NCBI GenBank assembly: GCA_007751255.1
Contig: CP036296.1
Coordinates: forward strand, 4,092,001-4,156,000
Direction of reading: 5' to 3'
DNA: 64,000 nt
DNA from: Engelhardtia mirabilis
GTDB lineage: Bacteria; Planctomycetota; UBA1135; GCA-002686595
In this document: positions 8,036 to 21,474 of the stretch, piece after piece
Layout of the letters: every line of letters begins with the position of its first letter
Numbering within the stretch: position 1 is the stretch's first letter
Program-made: the position numbers and the translations under genes
Notes under the pieces: model-generated
The model's input: only the letters and a program-made list of their open reading frames with translations
What the model was told of the DNA's origin: nothing
The model's database searches: none

Positions 8036-9553
8036 ATGATCAACCACATCTCCAACCTCGGTGCGACCCTCTGGCGCGCCATGGGAGACGGCGCGCTGGT
8101 GACGGACGGAGCCCTGGTCCTGGGCGCCAATCGGGCCCTGGCCACTGCTCTGGGAACGACCGAGGAAGACCTGGTCGGTCGGCCCCTGACCGATCTGTTC
8201 GCGACCTCCCTGGCGGCGACGCACGATGGCTACGGCCCCTACACCATCGGCGATCTGGTCAGGGACGCCGCCGCGGGCCACCCAGGTCGTGCGTCGTTCG
8301 AGCTGCGCGGAGGTCGCGCCGGTGGGCGGGAGATCGAACTGCACCTCGAGCGCATGGATCCCACGACCCTGGTGGGCCTGGTCCAGCGTGGCCCCGAGGA
8401 CGGCGTCCTCGACGTGCGCCTGCGCGAGGCCCAACGCATGGAGTCGGTGGGACGGCTCGCGGCTGGGATCGCCCACGACTTCAACAACATGCTGTCGCCG
8501 ATCCTGGTCTATTCCGACCTGTTGCTGGACGACGCGCAGCTGACCGAGGTCCAGTCGGAGCAGCTGGGCGTGGTGCGCTCGGCCGCCGAGCGTTGCCGCG
8601 TCCTGTCCCGACGCCTGCTGGATCTCGGTCGACGGCGGCCCTCGGGACAGCGCGCCGCCGATCTGCGGCAGGTGGTCAGCAACCTCGAGCCGCTGCTGCA
8701 GCGCAGTCTGTCCAGTGACGTGCGCCTGGAGGTCGAACTGACCTCGGCGGAAACGGTGGTCCTCGCGGATCCGTCGCAGATCGAGCAGATCGTCTCCAAC
8801 CTCGTGCTCAACGCCCATGACGCCATGCCCACCGGCGGCGAGATCCACGTACAGATCCGGCGACGGACGTTCGCGGCCGGGGACTTGGACGGGCATCCGG
8901 ACGCCGTGGCGGGTGATTTCGGCGTGATCGTCGTCTCCGACAACGGTGTTGGAATGGACCCGGACTTGCAACAGCGCGCCTTCGAGCCCTTCTTCAGCAC
9001 CAAGGGCGACGCGGGCACCGGCCTCGGCCTGGCGACAGTGCAGGGCATCGCGCGCCAGCACGGCGGCCACGTTCGGCTATACAGCGAGCCGGGCTTGGGC
9101 ACGACGCTGCGCGTCTACCTGCCCTCGACCAGTGCGTCGATCGCAGAGCCGGTCTGCGGGCAGGCGCCGATCGAGTCGCGCCGAGGTCGAGGCGAGTTGA
9201 TCCTGGTCGCCGAAGACGACCACCTGATTCGCGCGGTGGCCAGCACGATCCTCGAACGCATCGGCTACCGAGTGATGGTCGCGCGCAGCGGCGCCGAGGC
9301 CCTCGAACTGCTCTCCACCTCGAGCGAGCGGGTCGACCTGCTCCTGACCGATGTGATCATGCCGGACATGACCGGAGCCGAGTTGGCCGCGCGGGTCAAG
9401 GCGCGCTTCCGTGCAGTGGAGGCGGTCTACATGTCGGGCTACACCGATAAGGTCGTGGCCCGCCACGGCCTACTCCATCCCCACATCAGCGTGCTGGAGA
9501 AGCCGTTCACCGAGAACGAACTCGCGGCCCAAATCGGCCGGGCACTCGACTGA
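8036..9553 (+). CDS. Hybrid sensor histidine kinase with C-terminal receiver
   Basis: A 505-residue cytoplasmic protein; no membrane segment is visible. Residues 1-120 form a PAS-like sensor. The HisKA dimerisation helix carries the phospho-acceptor in GIAHDFNNML (His147). The HATPase_c domain follows with the N box (NLVLNAHDAM), G1 (VSDNGVGM), F box (FEPFFSTK) and G2 (GTGLGLATV). A receiver domain occupies the last 125 residues, with the Asp in LLLTDVIMPDM and the Lys in VLEKPFT. This layout matches NtrB/PAS hybrid kinases. The ATG at 8036 is preferred over the upstream GTG at 7838 because GGAACGAG precedes it and the upstream codons look random. No cognate response regulator lies beside it. 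Confidence 0.88.
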   Translation: MINHISNLGATLWRAMGDGALVTDGALVLGANRALATALGTTEEDLVGRPLTDLFATSLAATHDGYGPYTIGDLVRDAAAGHPGRASFELRGGRAGGREIELHLERMDPTTLVGLVQRGPEDGVLDVRLREAQRMESVGRLAAGIAHDFNNMLSPILVYSDLLLDDAQLTEVQSEQLGVVRSAAERCRVLSRRLLDLGRRRPSGQRAADLRQVVSNLEPLLQRSLSSDVRLEVELTSAETVVLADPSQIEQIVSNLVLNAHDAMPTGGEIHVQIRRRTFAAGDLDGHPDAVAGDFGVIVVSDNGVGMDPDLQQRAFEPFFSTKGDAGTGLGLATVQGIARQHGGHVRLYSEPGLGTTLRVYLPSTSASIAEPVCGQAPIESRRGRGELILVAEDDHLIRAVASTILERIGYRVMVARSGAEALELLSTSSERVDLLLTDVIMPDMTGAELAARVKARFRAVEAVYMSGYTDKVVARHGLLHPHISVLEKPFTENELAAQIGRALD

Positions 9554-9591
9554 GGTCGGGAACGGCGCGCTTGCCGGGGGGCTCGGGCCAG

Positions 9592-9597
9592 TAGGCT
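9592..9597 (+). promoter_or_regulatory. -10-like TAGGCT with short leader
   Basis: TAGGCT lies 24 nt before the ATG at 9621, and a GGAG Shine-Dalgarno sequence sits between. It is the same hexamer class as the leaderless examples, here with a short conventional leader. Confidence 0.3.
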
Positions 9598-9620
9598 GGC
9601 CAGCCCGCAGGAGACCCACG

Positions 9621-12593
9621 ATGCAGCTACGAACTCGACTTGCCCCCGCCGCCCTCTCCGTCTGCCTCGCCCTCGGTGTCGCCGCGCCCGCGGGCGCCCA
9701 GGACATCGTCGTAGTCAATGTGGCCGACCTCGAACTCGACGGATCGGAGTGGCCCGCCGACCTCGGCCGAGGACTCGGCTGGTTTCGACCGGGTGAGTTC
9801 GAACTGAGGCTGGCGTTGGACGGAGCCCCGGAGGCGTACCTGGTCACGGCCCTCGACGACCAGGGCTGGATCGGCTACGAGGGCCTCGTCGCCGAACTAC
9901 GCAGGGGCGCGATCGTGGCGGACCTGGGCCCTGGGGCGATCCTCGAAGGGTCCACGGAGCTGCGCGGCACCCTGACGCTGCCCGCGCCCGAGCGGGGTGA
10001 CGCGCCCCTGCGGCTGCGTTTCCGTGCGCCGCGCGGTGCCTTATCGCGCGGTGCCTTATCGCGCGGTGCCTTGTCGCGCGGTGCCTTGTCGCGCGGTGCC
10101 TTGGAGTCCAGCGGCCCCCTCGACCTGGCCTATGGCCGTGCGAGACACTACGCGCAGCTGTTGGGACGCGACCTGCCGGGATCGGCCTGGTTCCGGCATC
10201 TGCGCGGCCGATCGCTCGCGCAGCTCGAGGCCGCGAGCGATGCATCGGAGGGCAGTGGCGTCGATGCCCCCCACAGCTCCTTGGAGCTGCGCTTCGGCTC
10301 GATTCACGGTCGCGACGGTGAGCTCGGGCCCTGGCGCGATCGCTGGCGCACCGACGACGCCGCGACCTTCAGTCTGGTCTCCGGCGGCCGCGCCTTGGCG
10401 GAGAACATGCAGCTCGATCGCATGTTGCCCCTGACCGTGCCCGCCGAGGACACGGTGGAGTTGGACTCGATCGAGGGCGTGACCGTCGCAGCCTTCGACT
10501 GGGGCCCCTTGGTCGAGGGACTGGATCCAGTGCGCGACGCCCTCGCCGCGCACATTCCGGCGGACCAATACGCCCTGTATTCCCCGTCGCTGGACGCCTT
10601 CTCGCGCCTGCTGGACGAGCTCGAAGCCGACGGTGCGCCCGTGGTCGCCGCACTCGAGACACGCGCGCGGGACGCGCGCACGCGCCAGATGTACGAGCGG
10701 CAGCTCTGCGCGCCCCTGGGACTCGTCGCGCGGACCCTGGGCGCACTGGTCGTGCGCTCGGTCGCCGTCACCGGAGGCGACCCCTACCTGCGAACCGGCA
10801 CCGACCTCGCGCTGCTGTTCGAGACACCCGGCCCGGGGGTGCTCGCCGAGTGGCTCCACGGGCAACAGCGTGCCGCCGCCGAGGCCCACGCCTTGGCCCG
10901 CACGGTCGAGACCACCGTCGGACCCTGGTCGGTGCGCGGCGTCGTCACGCCGGACCGCTCGATCAGCTCCTGGGTCGCCAGCGGCGCGGACTTCGTGGTC
11001 GTCAGCAACTCGATCCGCCAGTTGGAGGTCCTGGCGCAGGTCGAGGCGGGCAACCTGCCCGCCGCCGCCGAATCGCAGGAGTACCGCTTCTTCAGGTCTC
11101 GCTATCCCCTCGGCACAGAAGACGAGACCGCTTTCGTGATCGTGCCCGACGCCGCCATCCGCACCTGGTGCAGCCCCCTGTGGCGCATCGCGACCGCGCG
11201 GCGCACGCGCGCCCTGGCCTACCTCGAGGACATCGCCGTGGCCTGGCGCTTCGCGCCGGTGCTCGAGCGCCTGGGCCTCCCGCCGGTACCGCGCGACGAC
11301 GCCAGCCGCGCCATCGACGGTCTGGGCGAGCTGGCGCTGACCGTCGACGGTCCCGTCTCGGAGCACTACGGTTCGATTGCCTTCCTGACCCCCATCGCCG
11401 AGTTGGCCCTGACCCACGTGTCCAAGCGCGAGGCCGAGCTCTACGACACCTGGCGCGACGGGTTCGAGCGCAACTGGAGCAACTTCTTCGATCCGATCGG
11501 CGCGTCGGTGCGCCAGACCGAGAGCTCGCTTGCGGTGGACCTCAGCGTGATCCCGCTGATCCTGGGCAGCGACTACCGCGACATGATTCAGGTCGTCGGC
11601 GCACAGTCCCTGGAGGGCCGCGACGGCGATCCCCACGAAGGTGCGGTCGTGCACTTCACCAGCGCCCTCGATCCCGAGGGGGAGGAGATCCAGGAGGCCG
11701 GCCGCGACCTGTCCGGCTTCGTCGACGGCTTCGGGCCCAACGCGCTGAGCTGGCTCGGGGACTGGTGGTCGATCCACGCCGACGACAGCGAGCTCCTGGA
11801 CGAACTGCTCGAGGCCGAGGATCTCAACGATGCCTGGGACACGCTGGAGGCCGACCTGGACCTGCTGCCGGTGGTGTTCGAGGTCGGCGTGGCCAAGCCC
11901 CTGGCCCTGGCCGGGTTCCTGACCGCGATCCGGGCCATGGCCGAGAGTTCGGCGCCGGGTCTCGTGGACTGGCACACGGACCAGACCGCGGATGGGCGAG
12001 CCTTCGTGCGCGTGGCCAGCACGGCTCTCTCCGACGACGAGTTGGCTCTGTACTACTCAACCACGCCGCGCTCGCTGATCGTCTCGTTCAACCGCGAGGC
12101 CCTGGTGGCGGCCCTGGACCGCTGGAACCCGCCCGCGGACGAGAACGGCGAACGGCCGGCGCGACCCGACGAGACCGCCCCCACCCCGTGGCTGGGTGAG
12201 AGCGTGGCCTTCGAGTTCGAACCCCGCGCATTGCTCTACCTGGGTTTGATGGACGGCGACGACCCGCGTGAGCTGCCCCTCGAGGCGAGCTTCGCGAACC
12301 TCCCTGCCCTCGACGAGTGGCACCGGCTGTTCCCCGGCCGGGATCCGGTCGAGGTGCACGAGGAGCTATTCGGCGAGCGGCTGGTGTGTCCGAGCGGCGG
12401 CACGTACGTCTGGGACGCCGAGGCCGGGCGCATGGCGTCGAGCGTCTACGGTCATCCGGGCGCACCGCAGCATCCCGCGGGGGCCCAGGTGCTGCCCCCG
12501 GCGCTGCGCGATCTGGCGCGGATCCGATTGGGCCTGACCTTCGAGACCGCCGTCGACGGGCTGCGCGCCCGGGGCGAGCTGCTGCGCCGCTGA
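9621..12593 (+). CDS. Large secreted protein of unknown function with RGALS repeat
   Basis: 990 residues from the ATG at 9621, which follows CAGGAG by about 8 nt; the longer frame from 9411 overlaps the kinase and is rejected. A signal peptide (LAPAALSVCLALGVAAPAGA) ends near residue 25. Residues about 138-160 are five tandem RGALS units encoded by a 15-bp DNA repeat. The remaining sequence is acidic and globular with no enzyme motif I can name. Its layout (repeated ALVAALDRWN-like and LARTVETTVG-like blocks) resembles large DUF3352-like exported proteins, but that is only an impression. The final residues (LRARGELLRR) lack an anchor, so it is probably periplasmic or secreted. Confidence 0.7.
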   Translation: MQLRTRLAPAALSVCLALGVAAPAGAQDIVVVNVADLELDGSEWPADLGRGLGWFRPGEFELRLALDGAPEAYLVTALDDQGWIGYEGLVAELRRGAIVADLGPGAILEGSTELRGTLTLPAPERGDAPLRLRFRAPRGALSRGALSRGALSRGALSRGALESSGPLDLAYGRARHYAQLLGRDLPGSAWFRHLRGRSLAQLEAASDASEGSGVDAPHSSLELRFGSIHGRDGELGPWRDRWRTDDAATFSLVSGGRALAENMQLDRMLPLTVPAEDTVELDSIEGVTVAAFDWGPLVEGLDPVRDALAAHIPADQYALYSPSLDAFSRLLDELEADGAPVVAALETRARDARTRQMYERQLCAPLGLVARTLGALVVRSVAVTGGDPYLRTGTDLALLFETPGPGVLAEWLHGQQRAAAEAHALARTVETTVGPWSVRGVVTPDRSISSWVASGADFVVVSNSIRQLEVLAQVEAGNLPAAAESQEYRFFRSRYPLGTEDETAFVIVPDAAIRTWCSPLWRIATARRTRALAYLEDIAVAWRFAPVLERLGLPPVPRDDASRAIDGLGELALTVDGPVSEHYGSIAFLTPIAELALTHVSKREAELYDTWRDGFERNWSNFFDPIGASVRQTESSLAVDLSVIPLILGSDYRDMIQVVGAQSLEGRDGDPHEGAVVHFTSALDPEGEEIQEAGRDLSGFVDGFGPNALSWLGDWWSIHADDSELLDELLEAEDLNDAWDTLEADLDLLPVVFEVGVAKPLALAGFLTAIRAMAESSAPGLVDWHTDQTADGRAFVRVASTALSDDELALYYSTTPRSLIVSFNREALVAALDRWNPPADENGERPARPDETAPTPWLGESVAFEFEPRALLYLGLMDGDDPRELPLEASFANLPALDEWHRLFPGRDPVEVHEELFGERLVCPSGGTYVWDAEAGRMASSVYGHPGAPQHPAGAQVLPPALRDLARIRLGLTFETAVDGLRARGELLRR
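10031..10104 (+). repeat. In-frame 15-bp tandem repeat, about 4.9 copies
   Basis: The unit GCGCGGTGCCTTRTC (R = A in copies 1-2, G in 3-4) repeats at 10031, 10046, 10061, 10076 and partly at 10091. The length is a multiple of three, so copy-number change alters the protein by whole RGALS pentapeptides. The first two copies use TTA for leucine, a rare codon in this GC-rich region. Confidence 0.95.
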
Positions 12594-13725: not shown

Positions 13726-15015
13726 TCAGCCTTCCGACAACTCCAAGGAGCGGCGGGCGACCTTCCAGTCGGCCAGGGCCGCACCCACTGCCGAGGGCTC
13801 GCCGAACAGGCGTACGCGCAGGGCGCGCCCGGGGCCCAGGGGTAGGACCTCGAACCAGAAGCTGCGCCCGGCGGACTCGAACTCGCAAGCCTGGCCGCGG
13901 CCCAGAGAGCAGCGCACCGGTCGCACGCGCTGCACTTCCTGCTGTGCGCGGACCTGCGCGATGGTGGCCTCGATGTAGTCCGCGGCCTCCTGGGCGCCGA
14001 TGGCGTAGCCGCCGAACTCGAGCGTCACCTGCTCGCCGCCGCCGTAGAGGGTCGTGGTGAAGCGGGTGTGGTCCGCGTCGTCGCTGAGGAACCAGTGACT
14101 GGGCAGCTCGACAGTCAGGTCCAGGTCGTCGACGGTGCGCGGCACCGATCGGTAGCGCAGGCCCAGGAGCAACGCTTTGGTCACCGCGGCGCCGGTGGCG
14201 CAGTTCAGGCCGACTTCGAAGGTCGCCGAGCCCTCGAGCTGGAAGTCGATCCCCGAGCCGAACACGCTGCGCTCGCCCGACCAGTCGAGTTCCACCAAGC
14301 GGTGGGCCCGGGTGTCCACGATCAGCTTGCAGTCCCCTTCGTAGCGCACGGCGAGCACGGCCGTCTCCTCGCGACGCACCTCCGAGCTGACCAGGCGGCC
14401 GACCAACCGCGCCAGGCCCAGCTCGTCCACGGACACCAGCTCGAATTCGCCCAGGGCCGTCACGTCCCCCACGGCGTCGGTCAAGAGGGTCCCCACCGCG
14501 TGGGGCGCGACCGTCAAGCTCTCGCCGACGCCGACGCCCACTGGCAGGCCCAGGTCGAAGCCGAAGCTCGACGCCTCCGCGAGCAGTCCGTCCATGACTC
14601 GGCCGCGCACCCCACGCCCAACGGTACTGGCGTCGAACATGCCCTCCCGCTCGCGGTAGGCCACGCGGACGCCGACCAGCTCGGGGTCACGCACGGTGCG
14701 CTCGACGCTCTGGTCGAAGCGCAGGAACCGGCGCACCCCCTCCCAGCCCCCGTTCTCGATCGCGGTGAACTCGTCCACCAGTGCGATCGTGCGACGCTCG
14801 TCCACCGGCGCGCGCGAGCGCCCCTGCGGCGTCTCCGTGGTGAGCGAACCGCGCACGCGCGAGGTCCACTCGACCAGCACCGGTCGGCCGACCTGAGGCA
14901 CCGAACTCAGATCGTGCAGCACCTCCGCGGCGGTAGGTTCCTGGTACGAGGCCGCAAGGCCGGCCGCTAGGCAGGTGACCAGACTCGAAGCCAGGCTCGT
15001 CTTCGTCATTCCCAT
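13726..15015 (-). CDS. Secreted protein of unknown function
   Basis: About 429 residues if translation starts at the Met at 15015 (MGMTKTSLASSLVTCL); the longer frame from 15066 adds an Arg-rich run that looks non-coding. A signal peptide ends near AASYQ. The mature part is beta-rich, with a central LPVGVGVGESLTV region, a single mid-domain cysteine (YEGDCKLIVDTRAHRLVELD) and a C-terminal RCSLGRGQACEF segment. It resembles planctomycete exported proteins but no family is assigned. It is convergent with the APH-fold kinase gene. Confidence 0.65.
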   Translation of the reverse strand: MGMTKTSLASSLVTCLAAGLAASYQEPTAAEVLHDLSSVPQVGRPVLVEWTSRVRGSLTTETPQGRSRAPVDERRTIALVDEFTAIENGGWEGVRRFLRFDQSVERTVRDPELVGVRVAYREREGMFDASTVGRGVRGRVMDGLLAEASSFGFDLGLPVGVGVGESLTVAPHAVGTLLTDAVGDVTALGEFELVSVDELGLARLVGRLVSSEVRREETAVLAVRYEGDCKLIVDTRAHRLVELDWSGERSVFGSGIDFQLEGSATFEVGLNCATGAAVTKALLLGLRYRSVPRTVDDLDLTVELPSHWFLSDDADHTRFTTTLYGGGEQVTLEFGGYAIGAQEAADYIEATIAQVRAQQEVQRVRPVRCSLGRGQACEFESAGRSFWFEVLPLGPGRALRVRLFGEPSAVGAALADWKVARRSLELSEG

Positions 15016-15167
15016 GGTCACAGGACTGGCGCGGCGCCACGCTCGGCGGCGCCCGTCCGGGTCCATTCTGGACCTTATCGCGCCGATCGCGGAACCGCCG
15101 CGGGAATAGGTCGTGCGGGGTCGTCGTCCAGCTCCGCGCCGCCACGACCGCCCTCCAGAGAGCTCCC

Positions 15168-15641: not shown

Positions 15642-16949
15642 TTGAAGCCCGAACAGATCACCGAGACCGCCCGTCGTCTGCGCACGGCCGAGTCCGGCGT
15701 TCGCATCCTGCGCACGCTGAGCTGGTCGCCCGAGGTGCGGCGGGAGTTCTTCGCCCGGGACGCCCGCGAGCTGCCGCGGGTGACCTACCCGGTCATGAAC
15801 GCGGCGCCGATCCACGCCCAGTTGGCCGAGATTCGTCGGGGCATCGAGGGCGACGGCACGGTTGCACGCTGGCTGCGCCGCTGCGCGGATGCGATCGGCA
15901 GCTCGGCGGACATGCTGGCCAGCGCCGGCACGCCGGCCTTCCTCGAGTACGGCAAGCGGCTCTACGGCACCCCGACCAGCCAACAGGGGGACGCCACGGC
16001 CCTGGCCCTGGCCCAGACGGTCGAGCGGGTGTGCGACAGCGTCGCCGGCCTCGACCTGGGCGCGCCCTCGGCCGCCTGCCACTTCGCCACCGCCGTGGCC
16101 CAGGGCCTGCGCCGCGCCTGCGTGCGGCTGTTCGGCGACCAAGCGCCCGAGGTGGTCGTCGTGGACCAGCTCTCGGCCAATGCCCTGGCCGGGCCACGCC
16201 GCATCCAGGTCCGGCGCGACGCCTGCTTCACTGACCGCGACCTGAACCAGTTGATCCAGCACGAGGCCTACGTCCACGTGTGCACCTCGCTCAACGGTCG
16301 CGCCCAGGCCAAGCTGCCGATCCTGGCCGCCTCCCACGCGGGGACGACTCGCACCCAAGAAGGGCTGGCGGTCTTCGCCGAGTTCATCACCGGCACCCAG
16401 GACCCCGACCGACTGCGGCGCCTGGCGGACCGCGTGCTCGCGATCGACATGGCCCTGCGGGGCGCGGACTTCCTCGAGGTCTACCGCTTCTTCCTGGGCC
16501 GCGGCATTCCCCGCGAGCAAGCCTTCGAGAATGCCCGTCGGGTATTCCGCGGCGGCGTGGTCGAAGGCGGTGTTCCGTTCACCAAGGACGTGGTTTACCT
16601 GGACGGCTTCCTGCGGGTCACGAACATGCTGCGGGCGATCGTGGCCGGGGGGCGTGCCGACTGCCTGTCGCTCCTGTTCTGCGGCAAGTTGGACCTCGAG
16701 GACTTTCCGGCCCTGGCGGAGCTGAGCGAGATCGGCCTGTGCGCGCCACCGACTTACCTGCCCCCCTGGGCCGCCGACCGCCGTTTCCTGGTGTCGTACC
16801 TGGCCTACTCGCAGTTCCTGGACGGGGTCCGGGTCGACGAGCACCGCAGTCACTACCGCGAGCTGCTCGGGCGCACGGACACCGCGCCCTGGGGCGGCGA
16901 GACCGTTCCCACCGACATCCCCACCCGTGGGGCGGTGATCGACGGCTGA
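15642..16949 (+). CDS. QEGLA-motif (DUF1704/MATCAP-like) zinc peptidase
   Basis: 435 residues from TTG 15642. The zinc site is HEAYVH (His207, Glu208, His212; HExxxH), followed about 28 residues later by TRTQEGLAVFAE, the QEGLA motif that names the family (flavohemoglobin-expression-modulating QEGLA protein) and supplies the third ligand. The eukaryotic relatives (KIAA0895/MATCAP) are tyrosine carboxypeptidases acting on C-terminal tails. The frame stays open upstream to a TGA at 15549 with coding-like sequence (LHFGVRFGENLHGSIDRR), but there is no standard start there and no RBS before TTG, so the true start is uncertain. It lies upstream of an aspartoacylase-like gene and rimK, on the same strand. 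Confidence 0.82.
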   Translation: MKPEQITETARRLRTAESGVRILRTLSWSPEVRREFFARDARELPRVTYPVMNAAPIHAQLAEIRRGIEGDGTVARWLRRCADAIGSSADMLASAGTPAFLEYGKRLYGTPTSQQGDATALALAQTVERVCDSVAGLDLGAPSAACHFATAVAQGLRRACVRLFGDQAPEVVVVDQLSANALAGPRRIQVRRDACFTDRDLNQLIQHEAYVHVCTSLNGRAQAKLPILAASHAGTTRTQEGLAVFAEFITGTQDPDRLRRLADRVLAIDMALRGADFLEVYRFFLGRGIPREQAFENARRVFRGGVVEGGVPFTKDVVYLDGFLRVTNMLRAIVAGGRADCLSLLFCGKLDLEDFPALAELSEIGLCAPPTYLPPWAADRRFLVSYLAYSQFLDGVRVDEHRSHYRELLGRTDTAPWGGETVPTDIPTRGAVIDG

Positions 16950-17113
16950 CGGAGCGGACGTCGGAGTCCAGGGTGCCGCCAGCGCGCGAGAGGCGGGCCC
17001 GTCCGGCAGGCGATGAACGGTCCCCCCCCGCTACGTCGACTGCGCCCTCCACGACACCGGTCGACCACCGTTGGTTGACGTCGATTGGTGGCGATCGTGG
17101 CCGGGCCTCTTGC

Positions 17114-17119
17114 TAGCCT
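17114..17119 (+). promoter_or_regulatory. -10-like TAGCCT, 7 nt before the GTG start
   Basis: TAGCCT ends at 17119 and the GTG of the aspartoacylase-like gene begins at 17126. No RBS is present. A candidate leaderless promoter; a TTGACG at 17075 is too far upstream to be its -35. Confidence 0.4.
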
Positions 17120-17125
17120 GCTGCG

Positions 17126-18187
17126 GTGAATAGTGACAACGACGAAGGGGCCGGCAGCCTGGCCTCGACGACGGACCAGGGCCCCCTGGTCCTGAATGGG
17201 ATCGAGATCCCAAAGGGCACTCGCCGCACGCTCTCCCTCCCGGTGGCGCGACGCTACACCGCCGGCGAGGTGTCCTTGCCCGTGTGCGTCATCCATGGCC
17301 GCAGGCCCGGACCGCGGCTGTTCGTCTCGGCGGCGATCCACGGCGACGAGATCAATGGGGTCGAGATCGTCCGACGCCTCTTGAAGCGCCAGCTGCTACC
17401 GAAGCTGCGCGGCGCGCTGATCGCGGTCCCCGTGGTCAACGTCTACGGCTTCGTCGAGCAGACGCGCTACCTGCCCGACCGCCGCGACCTGAACCGCTGC
17501 TTCCCCGGCTCGGCCAAGGGCTCCCTCGCCAGCCGCTTGGCGAACACCTTCCTGCAAGAGGTCGCGAAGAAGGCCACCCACGGCATCGACCTGCACACGG
17601 GCTCGCTGCACCGCACCAACCTGCCCCAGGTGCGGGCCTCCCTCGACGTACCCGGCAGCGAAGCCCTGGCGCGCAGCTTCGGTGCGCCGGTGATCCTGGA
17701 TTCCGCGATCCGCGAGGGCTCCCTGCGCGAGTCGGTCGGCGAGCTCGGGGTGCCGATGATCATCTACGAGGCGGGCGAGGCCCTGCGCTTCGATGAGCTC
17801 GCCATCAAGGCGGGCCTGCGCGGGGTGCTCTCGGTCATGCGCGACCTGGGCATGCTGCCGGCAGTCAAGCAGAAGAGTCGCCGGGTCGAGCCCTTCGTGG
17901 CCCACGGCAGCTCGTGGGTCCGCGCTCCCGAGAGCGGCATCCTCGTCACCAAGCTGCAACTGGGCGCACGGGTCGCCCGCGGCCAATGGCTCGGCACCAT
18001 CTCGGACCCGCTCGCCGAGGAGGAGGAGCCGATCATCTCCCCCACCGACGGCGTCCTGATCGGGCGCACGAACCTGCCCCTGGTCAACGAGGGCGACGCC
18101 GTGTTCCACATCGGCGTCTTCGAGCGTCTCGACCCCGTCGCCGACGAAGTCGACTACTTCCAGGACGAACTCACCCCCGATTCGTGA
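17126..18187 (+). CDS. Succinylglutamate desuccinylase/aspartoacylase-family metallohydrolase
   Basis: 353 residues from GTG. The M14-like zinc site is visible: HGDEINGVE (His72, Glu75), the substrate carboxylate loop PDRRDLNRCFPG (residues 118-128), IDLHTG (His157) and a catalytic Glu in IIYEAGEA. The last 100 residues form a beta-barrel-like tail with a biotinyl/lipoyl-like hammerhead pattern (WVRAPESGILVTKLQLGARV and IISPTDGVLIGRTNL). The family removes acyl groups from amino acids or trims C-terminal residues. Coding immediately upstream of rimK with a 148-nt gap, it is a plausible eraser of glutamate tails or source of free substrate; that role is inference. Confidence 0.88.
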   Translation: MNSDNDEGAGSLASTTDQGPLVLNGIEIPKGTRRTLSLPVARRYTAGEVSLPVCVIHGRRPGPRLFVSAAIHGDEINGVEIVRRLLKRQLLPKLRGALIAVPVVNVYGFVEQTRYLPDRRDLNRCFPGSAKGSLASRLANTFLQEVAKKATHGIDLHTGSLHRTNLPQVRASLDVPGSEALARSFGAPVILDSAIREGSLRESVGELGVPMIIYEAGEALRFDELAIKAGLRGVLSVMRDLGMLPAVKQKSRRVEPFVAHGSSWVRAPESGILVTKLQLGARVARGQWLGTISDPLAEEEEPIISPTDGVLIGRTNLPLVNEGDAVFHIGVFERLDPVADEVDYFQDELTPDS

Positions 18188-18335
18188 ACACGGACGGGGG
18201 GACCGCTGGAGCCCGGGCCCCCTGCTCCAACGCTGGTCCCCGGCGGCATCCCCGCCGCGGTCAGCGCGAAGCGCCCGAGAGCACGCGCCCTGAGGCCCGA
18301 GAGAACGCGACCTGAGAAACGGGCCCCAAAGAACA

Positions 18336-19553
18336 ATGAACTCCACCATGAAGATCGGAATCCTCTCCTGCAGCCCCAACTGCTACAGCACGCGACGGCT
18401 GAGGGAGGCGGCCCTGTCCCGTGGACACAAGGTCACGGTGCTGAACACGCTGCGCTTCAGCATCGACCTCGACAAGGGTCGGCCCGCCCTCTACTACAAG
18501 GGCAAGAGCCTCTCGACCTACGACGCGATCATCCCGCGCATCGGCGCCTCGATCACCTACTTCGGCACCGCTGTCATTCGTCAGTTCGAGCAGATGGAGG
18601 TCTTCTGCGTCAACGGCGCAGCGGGTATCTCCAACTCCCGTGACAAGCTGCGTTCGCTGCAGATCCTGTCGCGCCACGACATCGGCATCCCGGCCACCGA
18701 GTTCGTCAAGAACCGGGCGGACGTGCTGCCGGCCATCGAGCGTGTCGGCGGCGCGCCGGTGATCATCAAGCTGCTCGAGGGCACCCAAGGGGTGGGCGTG
18801 ATCCTGGCCGACAGCGAGAAGGTCGCCGAGGCGATCATCGAGACCCTGCAGAGCACGCGTCAGAACGTCCTGATCCAGAAGTTCGTCTCCGAGAGCAAGG
18901 GCAAGGACATTCGCGCCTTCGTGATCGGGGATCGCGTGGTCGCAGCCATGCGACGGGTGGCCCAGGGCAGCGAGTTCCGCAGCAACGTGCACCGCGGTGG
19001 CCGCACGGAGCTGGTCGACCTCGAACCTGCCTACGCCGAGGCCGCGGTGCGCGCGGCCCAGATCATGAACCTGCAGGTGGCCGGCGTGGACATGCTCGAG
19101 AGCAGCACAGGCCCCCAGATCATGGAGGTCAACTCCTCGCCGGGCCTCGAGGGCATCGAGGGAGCGACCAAGCTCGACATCGCCGGTGCGATCATCGACT
19201 ACACCCAGGAGCACGTGCGCTTCCCCGAGCTCGACATCCGCCAGCGCCTGACCGTCAGCCGCGGCTACGGCGTCAGCGAACTGCACATCCCCGAGGGCTC
19301 GGAGTTCGTGGGTAAGACGATCGTCGCGTCGGGTCTGCGCGAGAAGGACATCGCCGTGCTGGCGCTACACCGCGGCAACACCGTCATCCCCAACCCCCGC
19401 GACAGCCGCGTGCTCGAAGGCGGCGACCGGATGATCTGCTTCGGCAAGCGCGAGTCCATGAAAGACCTGATCCCCGAGCGCCGCAAGCGCCTGCGCAAGC
19501 GCAAGACCAAGGTGCTCGACACCGAGGTCCCCACGCACCTCGGCAACGAGTGA
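18336..19553 (+). CDS. rimK: RimK-family glutamate ligase fused to a TrkA-C domain
   Basis: 405 residues. Residues 1-295 match RimK throughout: the N-terminal MKIGILS/YYKGKSLSTYDAIIPRIG domain, the ATP-grasp loop KLLEGTQGVGV (146-156), EFRSNVHRGG (213-222) and the Mg-binding MEVNSSPGLEGIEG (263-276). E. coli RimK adds glutamates to the C terminus of ribosomal protein S6 and ends near residue 300. Here a further 105 residues form an RCK_C/TrkA-C domain (VSELHIPEGSEFVGKTIVAS to LEGGDRMICFGKRESM), a ligand-binding fold typical of ion-channel regulators, then a basic tail (RRKRLRKRKTK). The extra domain may make ligation depend on a small ligand. The ATG at 18348 is an alternative start. Confidence 0.88.
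   Translation: MNSTMKIGILSCSPNCYSTRRLREAALSRGHKVTVLNTLRFSIDLDKGRPALYYKGKSLSTYDAIIPRIGASITYFGTAVIRQFEQMEVFCVNGAAGISNSRDKLRSLQILSRHDIGIPATEFVKNRADVLPAIERVGGAPVIIKLLEGTQGVGVILADSEKVAEAIIETLQSTRQNVLIQKFVSESKGKDIRAFVIGDRVVAAMRRVAQGSEFRSNVHRGGRTELVDLEPAYAEAAVRAAQIMNLQVAGVDMLESSTGPQIMEVNSSPGLEGIEGATKLDIAGAIIDYTQEHVRFPELDIRQRLTVSRGYGVSELHIPEGSEFVGKTIVASGLREKDIAVLALHRGNTVIPNPRDSRVLEGGDRMICFGKRESMKDLIPERRKRLRKRKTKVLDTEVPTHLGNE

Positions 19554-19917: not shown

Positions 19918-21473
<1,556 letters not shown>

Positions 21474-21474
<1 letters not shown>

Follow-up and report, generated by a model that had tools for sequence, protein, structure and literature searches.

Why should a RimK-type glutamate ligase carry the kind of sensor domain that is found on potassium channels, and which enzymes act with it? 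This question is raised by a locus of the planctomycete Engelhardtia mirabilis (class UBA1135; genome size 6.95 Mb), located in a stretch of 64,000 nucleotides of contig CP036296.1 (positions 4,092,001 to 4,156,000, forward strand), hereafter the window. Its genes encode a QEGLA-type zinc protein, an aspartoacylase-like hydrolase (AspA) and a RimK ligase fused to a TrkA_C domain, and the original prediction, made from the window alone, read them as one ligase writing C-terminal tails and two metalloenzymes erasing them, with ligation possibly gated by a ligand of the TrkA_C domain. The fused-RimK system is real and widespread, and its partner set, AspA and the retropepsin RimB, is better founded than the one predicted; its function, which we infer from domains and gene contexts, would be regulated glutamylation.

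Gene content of the locus

The open reading frame (ORF) list of the window confirmed the three genes, all on the plus strand. Their features, in window coordinates, are the following.

15642..16949, +, QEGLA/MATCAP (TMCP-like) zinc metallopeptidase homologue, 435 aa (PF08014; TIGR02421 below cut-off)
16260..16277, +, HExxxH zinc motif, H207/E208/H212 of the QEGLA protein (invariant in 13 aligned rows, 11 distinct)
16356..16370, +, QEGLA motif with the likely third metal ligand E240 (invariant in the same rows; role by homology)
17126..18187, +, AstE/AspA (M14-like) hydrolase of 353 aa, a candidate for trimming glutamate from C-termini (PF24827; PDB relatives; co-occurrence with RimK)
17339..17350, +, H72-G-D-E75, putative zinc ligands of AspA (100% of 73 aligned rows)
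17594..17596, +, H157 of AspA, putative companion of H72/E75 (100% of 73 rows)
17768..17770, +, E215 of AspA, putative companion of H72/E75 (100% of 73 rows)
18336..19553 (start may be 18348), +, RimK alpha-L-glutamate ligase fused to TrkA_C, 405 aa (Pfam, curated models, alignment)
18348..18629, +, RimK pre-ATP-grasp domain (PF18030, 6.5e-38)
18639..19202, +, RimK ATP-grasp domain (PF08443, 1.9e-56; gapless alignment to 7qyr)
19275..19469, +, TrkA_C/RCK C-lobe domain (PF02080, 1.3e-10; PDB profile matches)
19470..19550, +, basic C-terminal tail of the fused RimK (basic in 93 of 93 rows with the CFG/CYG motif)

The start of the fused RimK is probably the second methionine, at 18348, the site at which most homologues begin.

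The RimK ligase and its fused TrkA_C domain

The architecture predicted for the third gene was borne out, both RimK domains and the TrkA_C domain (residues 314–378; 41.5 bits against a gathering score of 27) being recognised by Pfam above their cut-offs. The RimK family model TIGR00768 was passed with a score of 241.5 against a cut-off of 143.4, and the score to the S6--L-glutamate ligase equivalog NF007764 fell slightly short of its cut-off (325.8 against 331 bits); no curated equivalog model claims this protein, AspA or the QEGLA protein, all scores being under the cut-offs. The RimK domain aligns without gaps to structure 7qyr (E = 1.5e-99). The residues of Pseudomonas aeruginosa RimK in contact with poly-glutamate are S7, R8, S14, R64, S68, R189 and N262 (PMC10092738). 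According to the alignment with 7qyr, six of these seven contacts are kept in the fused RimK, as S11, S18, R68, S72, R193 and N266.

The TrkA_C domain was also found by Pfam in all three distant fused RimKs that were checked (L134, L154 and L173; labels with L denote loci, those with G genomes). Its best relative in the PDB by profile is MthK (2.3e-5), followed by KtrC, KtrA, KhtT and a GntR-type regulator. Because this domain is present, ligand gating of RimK, as originally proposed, is plausible. The basic tail is likewise a recurrent feature: at least six lysine or arginine residues lie within the 35 residues after the CFG/CYG motif in 93 of 93 fused-RimK rows, a count confined to rows showing the motif, with motif-less rows skipped. 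Docking on RNA or an acidic partner is a possible function of the tail.

A scan of a collection of 84,980 species with the TrkA_C part revealed at least 596 stretches, at least 584 of them related, showing that the fused RimK is widespread. The best 80 were taken as loci; their record titles include Planctomycetota, gamma-, alpha- and deltaproteobacteria, Acidobacteriota, Spirochaetales, Anaerolineae and others, and a RimK match was found by tblastn in all 80, some of them cut by contig ends. On a phylogenetic tree, 86 fused RimKs were placed on one side of a single branch and 12 unfused ones on the other (support 95/64; 94% of 200 bootstrap trees), with the limits that all unfused rows came from this class, that the bootstrap had not settled and that L094 and L135 form long branches. 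Rows with truncated starts or stops were dropped, L097 was omitted as a repeat of G067, and L038 and L098 are identical. Independent fusions were considered and rejected, since the position of all fused RimKs on one side of the branch makes a single origin the simpler reading.

Partners of the fused RimK

To what, then, is the fused RimK linked? Among 121 genomes of the class (thresholds: RimK E ≤ 1e-40, AspA and QEGLA 1e-20, RimB by PF05618), RimK was found in 24, AspA in 22, RimB in 22 and QEGLA in 11. Every one of the 22 genomes with AspA has RimK (Fisher 3.6e-22, kinship ignored), and so does every one of the 22 with RimB; RimK without AspA was found in G062 and G097. The fused form is present in 14 of the 121 genomes, the copy in G041 being cut by a contig end. 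In the 13 class contexts outside E. mirabilis, AspA was located near the fused RimK in ten and RimB in seven (stretches of about 17 kb or less); the cut G041 contig has neither of them beside the ligase.

The wider loci gave the same picture. RimK is flanked by 3 kb or more of sequence in either direction in 52 of the 80 loci, and there the partners within 3 kb were RimB in 40 cases, AspA in 36 and both in 32, RimB being the commonest of the tested neighbours. The co-occurrence of domains, which the original prediction had named as a check, spoke for AspA. Distant AspA-like genes are likewise found directly next to two more distant RimK-like genes, of 30% and 34% identity (L094:4138-6008 and L096:4230-6142).

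In the E. mirabilis genome the set is split. AspA (E ≤ 1e-20) occurs once, in the window, and RimB (PF05618) occurs once, at 282 kb, about 3.8 Mb from the window, where a search with PF08443 placed a second full RimK, unfused, directly after it. The same division, RimB with the unfused and AspA with the fused RimK, was seen in Pla163, whose RimK is identical to that of G038. The main eraser, RimB, and the channel neighbourhood described below were not visible to the original prediction. A weaker ATP-grasp match in this genome (L003:661-2124) represents a different protein, which another long ORF overlaps or follows.

The AspA-like hydrolase

The catalytic domain of AspA was assigned to PF24827 (AstE_AspA_cat, 4.8e-41, residues 61–239), and its relatives in the PDB include 3cdx and 6twl (DoeB). 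In an alignment of 73 rows, a few of them duplicates, H72, E75, R114, N123, H157 and E215 are conserved in 100% and R124 in 97%; the H-x-x-E...H pattern and the catalytic glutamate that mark the AstE/AspA superfamily are thus present, and the likely roles of H72, E75, H157 and E215 are those of their counterparts in AstE and ASPA. While an M14-like hydrolase had been rightly predicted, what was taken for a lipoyl-like tail is matched by the usual C-terminal region of AspA/DoeB structures, and no lipoyl domain was found in Pfam at E ≤ 0.1.

The reaction of AstE and aspartoacylase is the removal of an acyl group from glutamate or aspartate. Because this type of bond is that of a C-terminal glutamyl end, and because AspA is tied to RimB and RimK, we consider AspA a candidate for the published "reset" protease of RpsF glutamylation. 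In Pseudomonas fluorescens, RimB leaves 4–5 glutamates on RpsF, and a second, "reset" protease has been invoked, along with evidence of RimB-independent tail loss (PMC7343187). The main text of a later paper on RimB (PMC11957791) contains no words beginning with reset or carboxypeptidase.

The QEGLA protein

The first gene encodes the predicted HExxxH/QEGLA zinc protein: PF08014 (MATCAP) matches residues 35–393 with E = 2.1e-121 and 405.8 bits, and H207, E208, H212 and Q239-E240-G241-L242-A243 are invariant in the 13 aligned rows, of which 11 are distinct, the window and the G067 assembly being each included twice and the G064 row dropped because its match spans a stop. Both the family score and the two motifs thus place it with MATCAP, and the hypothetical-equivalog model TIGR02421 was not reached (283.2 bits against 338.65). 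Since eukaryotic MATCAP/TMCP enzymes strip tubulin polyglutamylation (PMC10499314), a role of QEGLA as a third eraser, where it is present, is plausible.

As a core partner, however, QEGLA was rejected. It adjoins the fused RimK in three of the 14 class genomes carrying the fusion (G000, which is this genome, G067, and G114, there in opposite orientation), and in one of the 52 wider loci within 3 kb (L097, the G067 assembly again); in G038, a member of the same family, the two lie 2.3 Mb apart. The rare adjacency speaks against this part of the prediction by the test that it had itself set out. Eight QEGLA neighbours were scanned in five further loci of the class, and none of them was recognised as a ligase or hydrolase partner: three had no Pfam match, and the remainder belong to unrelated families, among them a sulfatase and release factor 3. 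RimK is present in nine of the 11 QEGLA carriers among the class genomes (Fisher 4.9e-6, kinship ignored), and in the two carriers without RimK the QEGLA gene is located beside another ATP-grasp protein.

Some QEGLA contexts are of interest in themselves. L086:3550-11921 (G091) contains QEGLA (tblastn) with an N-formylglutamate amidohydrolase, a glutathione-synthetase-like ATP-grasp protein, CorA, a CNNM protein and MscS, and is a second ligase module beside magnesium and mechanosensitive channels. The same order of amidohydrolase, QEGLA and ATP-grasp genes was observed on pSymA of S. meliloti, with no channel annotated in the stretch inspected; this was the only one of three annotated plasmid contexts of QEGLA with an ATP-grasp neighbour. 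The gammaproteobacterial locus L171:2626-10606 comprises a bestrophin-like gene, QEGLA, a sodium:dicarboxylate symporter, the fused RimK and an MscS-like gene, with QEGLA 2.8 kb from the fused RimK, a case outside the 3-kb count rule.

Ion-channel genes near the fused RimK

Clustering of the ORFs around the fused RimK gave families recognised as mechanosensitive channels, CorA and MgtE. With one tblastn query each, MscK/MscS-like genes were found in 11, CorA in eight and MgtE in four of the 80 loci, and the class contexts contain MscS/MscK-like genes in six of 13 (L037, L041, L042, L043, L046 and L048) and CorA in three of 13. Across 23 genomes (121.6 Mb), MS_channel matched 145 times and CorA 34 times, a density at which 1.02 Mb would be expected to hold 1.2 MscK/MscS and 0.29 CorA matches (Poisson P 7e-8 and 9e-10, respectively); this excess is weakened by the origin of 22 of the 23 genomes from the loci, some of them chosen for having a match, and by possible misbinned records (L111 groups with L169 and L137). 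MscS and CorA are not two independent signals, since they also pair with each other. The channel neighbourhood is a lead, found after the fact.

In E. mirabilis, CorA adjoins a 1200-residue MscK-like ORF away from either RimK (L204:6343-11111, at about 3.77 Mb of G000 C1); CorA and MscS genes also lie close together, judged by coordinates, in several other genomes. In E. mirabilis, too, an ORF of MscK size is located about 3.3 kb from RimB at the locus of the unfused RimK.

Other genes near the locus were also noted. A SulP/SLC26-type anion transporter follows RimK at window positions 19918-21474, and a SulP match lies 2.3 kb after the fused RimK in L129, with none in the other 79 of the 80 loci at 1e-6. 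Upstream of QEGLA, a 446-aa ORF on the minus strand (13726-15066) had no Pfam or NCBIfam match at E ≤ 0.1, and towards its N terminus the ORF at 9411-12593 carries the pentapeptide RGALS as a short tandem repeat.

Proposed glutamylation cycle and alternative explanations

In the explanation that we favour, the RimK part would attach L-glutamate through alpha-peptide bonds to an acceptor whose C-terminal carboxylate is free. The TrkA_C domain would dimerise and bind a nucleotide, second messenger or cation reporting the ionic or osmotic state, and thereby gate ligation. RimB, whose gene lies at 282 kb of this genome, would cut long poly-glutamate and leave a stub of about four residues, and the AspA-like metalloenzyme would remove the remaining C-terminal glutamates, resetting the acceptor; QEGLA may be an extra, lineage-limited carboxypeptidase of similar chemistry. 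We regard the chances as evenly balanced that the locus is the regulated arm of such a RimB-RimK-AspA glutamylation cycle. In its favour are the conserved poly-glutamate contacts and AspA residues, the linkage of RimK with RimB and AspA, including the split in E. mirabilis and Pla163, the reset protease called for in Pseudomonas, the channel-regulator relatives of TrkA_C, the channel genes nearby and, from the literature, the osmotic role of a RimB-related system and the brackish-water frequency of K05844. The broader proposal is tentative and may well not hold as a whole: that the members of this widespread RimK clade are glutamylation enzymes gated by a ligand or ion through a potassium-channel-type sensor, forming with RimB and AspA, the latter as the reset protease, a write-cut-trim cycle that couples the ionic or osmotic state, together with nearby mechanosensitive or magnesium channels in part of the hosts, to protein glutamylation.

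Several observations weigh against this cycle. RimB is absent from the window, as are matches to MscS, CorA and MgtE; neither RimB nor AspA is located beside the fused RimK in G074 and G064, although both genomes have RimB-RimK-AspA elsewhere, and none of the tested partners was found in eight of the 52 loci. G041 has two AspA-like genes (L093 and L095) with no RimK in the stretch fetched. The scores of AspA are far short of the curated cut-offs (DoeB, 80.9 against 402.7; aspartoacylase, 29.2 against 180; AstE, 20 against 305.65), and R8 of the P. aeruginosa enzyme is replaced by C12 in the fused RimK. The channel families were chosen after their recurrence had been seen, in 80 loci that are related and not independent, and the MscK/MscS match in L152 is weak (25% identity, 7e-9). 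Cyclic di-AMP (c-di-AMP) was tried as a general ligand: diadenylate cyclase (DAC) is encoded in the E. mirabilis genome itself, but it is absent from six of 20 hosts of the fused RimK (the gammaproteobacterial L134, L127, L136, L155 and L171, and L138, titled Deltaproteobacteria), and therefore c-di-AMP is not the ligand everywhere, being excluded as a universal ligand only. The acidic tail of ribosomal protein S6 in this genome (L006:1144-1875) is very long, includes a run of Asp and GGDKEA repeats in tandem, and ends in SSDKEKSQ; S6 ends in glutamate in six of 24 hosts of the fused RimK (12 of the 14 class genomes and 12 hosts outside the class), in two of them as Glu-Glu, and within the class in one of 12 fused-RimK genomes and in one of 20 examined out of 97 without a RimK match. 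The S6 tail was thus rejected as evidence of the substrate, since it gives no contrast between the two groups, and the expectation that S6 is the substrate finds no support in these termini.

The same termini bear on the explanation in which the fused RimK simply glutamylates S6, as in E. coli, with TrkA_C aiding oligomerisation and no gating. The score just short of the S6-glutamate ligase cut-off speaks for it, and the acidic S6 tails of the class could offer a docking site for the basic tail, but S6 C-termini are alike with or without RimK, and the second, unfused RimK beside RimB is a better candidate for the S6 role; we consider this explanation rather improbable. Unlikely, too, is a small-molecule version, in which the ligase builds and AspA degrades an acyl-glutamate, oligoglutamate or free poly-alpha-glutamate, as an osmolyte or potassium counter-ion, with no protein tail involved. 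It would account for the channel and magnesium transporter neighbours and for the symporter family gene between QEGLA and RimK in L171, and is in line with the best curated match of AspA, the ectoine-breakdown deacetylase DoeB (6twl among the PDB relatives), yet that match is far under its cut-off. The action of mammalian RIMKLA and aspartoacylase in N-acetylaspartylglutamate metabolism also counts in its favour. However, no acyltransferase was recognised by eye among the neighbour clusters, a weak point given that these are mostly unannotated, and RpsF is the target of RimB and RimK in Pseudomonas (PMC7343187).

The dedicated three-gene cassette of the original prediction, with QEGLA and AspA as two metallo-erasers and the fused RimK as writer, is the remaining explanation. 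Its genes follow one another in the same way on a single strand both here and in G067, the tubulin activity of MATCAP/TMCP is of the required kind (PMC10499314), most QEGLA carriers have RimK, and QEGLA is paired with another ATP-grasp ligase in L086 and S. meliloti. Against this stand the rare adjacency in the class and beyond, the opposite strand in G114, the distance in G038 and the single ATP-grasp neighbour among the plasmid contexts, which make it very unlikely; what is retained from it is a ligase travelling with a hydrolase suited to the removal of C-terminal glutamate, that is, the RimK-AspA pair of the cycle proposed above.

Comparison with known systems

Neither a TrkA_C-fused RimK nor a bacterial AspA partner of RimK was named in the titles and abstract openings searched, which is not proof of absence. 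Words beginning with TrkA or desuccinylase are missing from the main text of PMC10092738, words beginning with aspartoacylase or succinylglutamate from that of PMC11957791, and words beginning with DUF1704, TrkA or desuccinylase from the available part of PMC4431377. An osmotic setting has been described for one related system: P. aeruginosa needs a RimB-related system for hypo-osmotic survival (PMC12239564). The fused-RimK loci provide a lead linking RimK systems with mechanosensitive and magnesium channels. Iyer and colleagues reportedly published a paper on ATP-grasp amidoligase operons in 2009. The KEGG entry K05844 we take to be RimK. Among glutamate-modification genes, K05844 is one of those more frequent in brackish than in marine genomes (PMC10219603).

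The closest known system is RimABK of Pseudomonas, with the RimK ligase and the RimB retropepsin, which act on RpsF (PMC7343187). The RimK domains are closely related, and the commonest tested neighbour of the fused RimK is RimB, but the fused system adds the TrkA_C domain, the basic tail and the AspA-like partner. A large group of RimKs thus carries a built-in sensor-type domain, and AspA is a concrete candidate for the reset protease invoked by models of ribosome glutamylation in Pseudomonas (PMC7343187). The Rlo system of P. aeruginosa (RloA retropepsin, RloB, and the ATP-grasp protein RloC) resembles it in combining a retropepsin with an ATP-grasp enzyme in an osmotic setting, but differs in its secreted protease, inactive transglutaminase membrane protein and distant ATP-grasp enzyme with 24% identity to RimK, and no TrkA_C domain is mentioned in the available part of the article (PMC12239564).

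Comparable relationships hold for the individual components. By sequence profile, the TrkA_C domain belongs to the same family as the RCK C-lobes of MthK, KtrA/KtrC, KhtT and the GntR-type regulator, which are attached to a channel, transporter or repressor, whereas here it is attached to a ligase. AspA shares the catalytic domain family and the metal residues of AstE, aspartoacylase and DoeB, and differs in its scores below the cut-offs and in its tie to RimK. The QEGLA protein has PF08014, the HExxxH motif and the downstream glutamate in common with the MATCAP/TMCP tubulin carboxypeptidases, but is bacterial and is linked to RimK only loosely.

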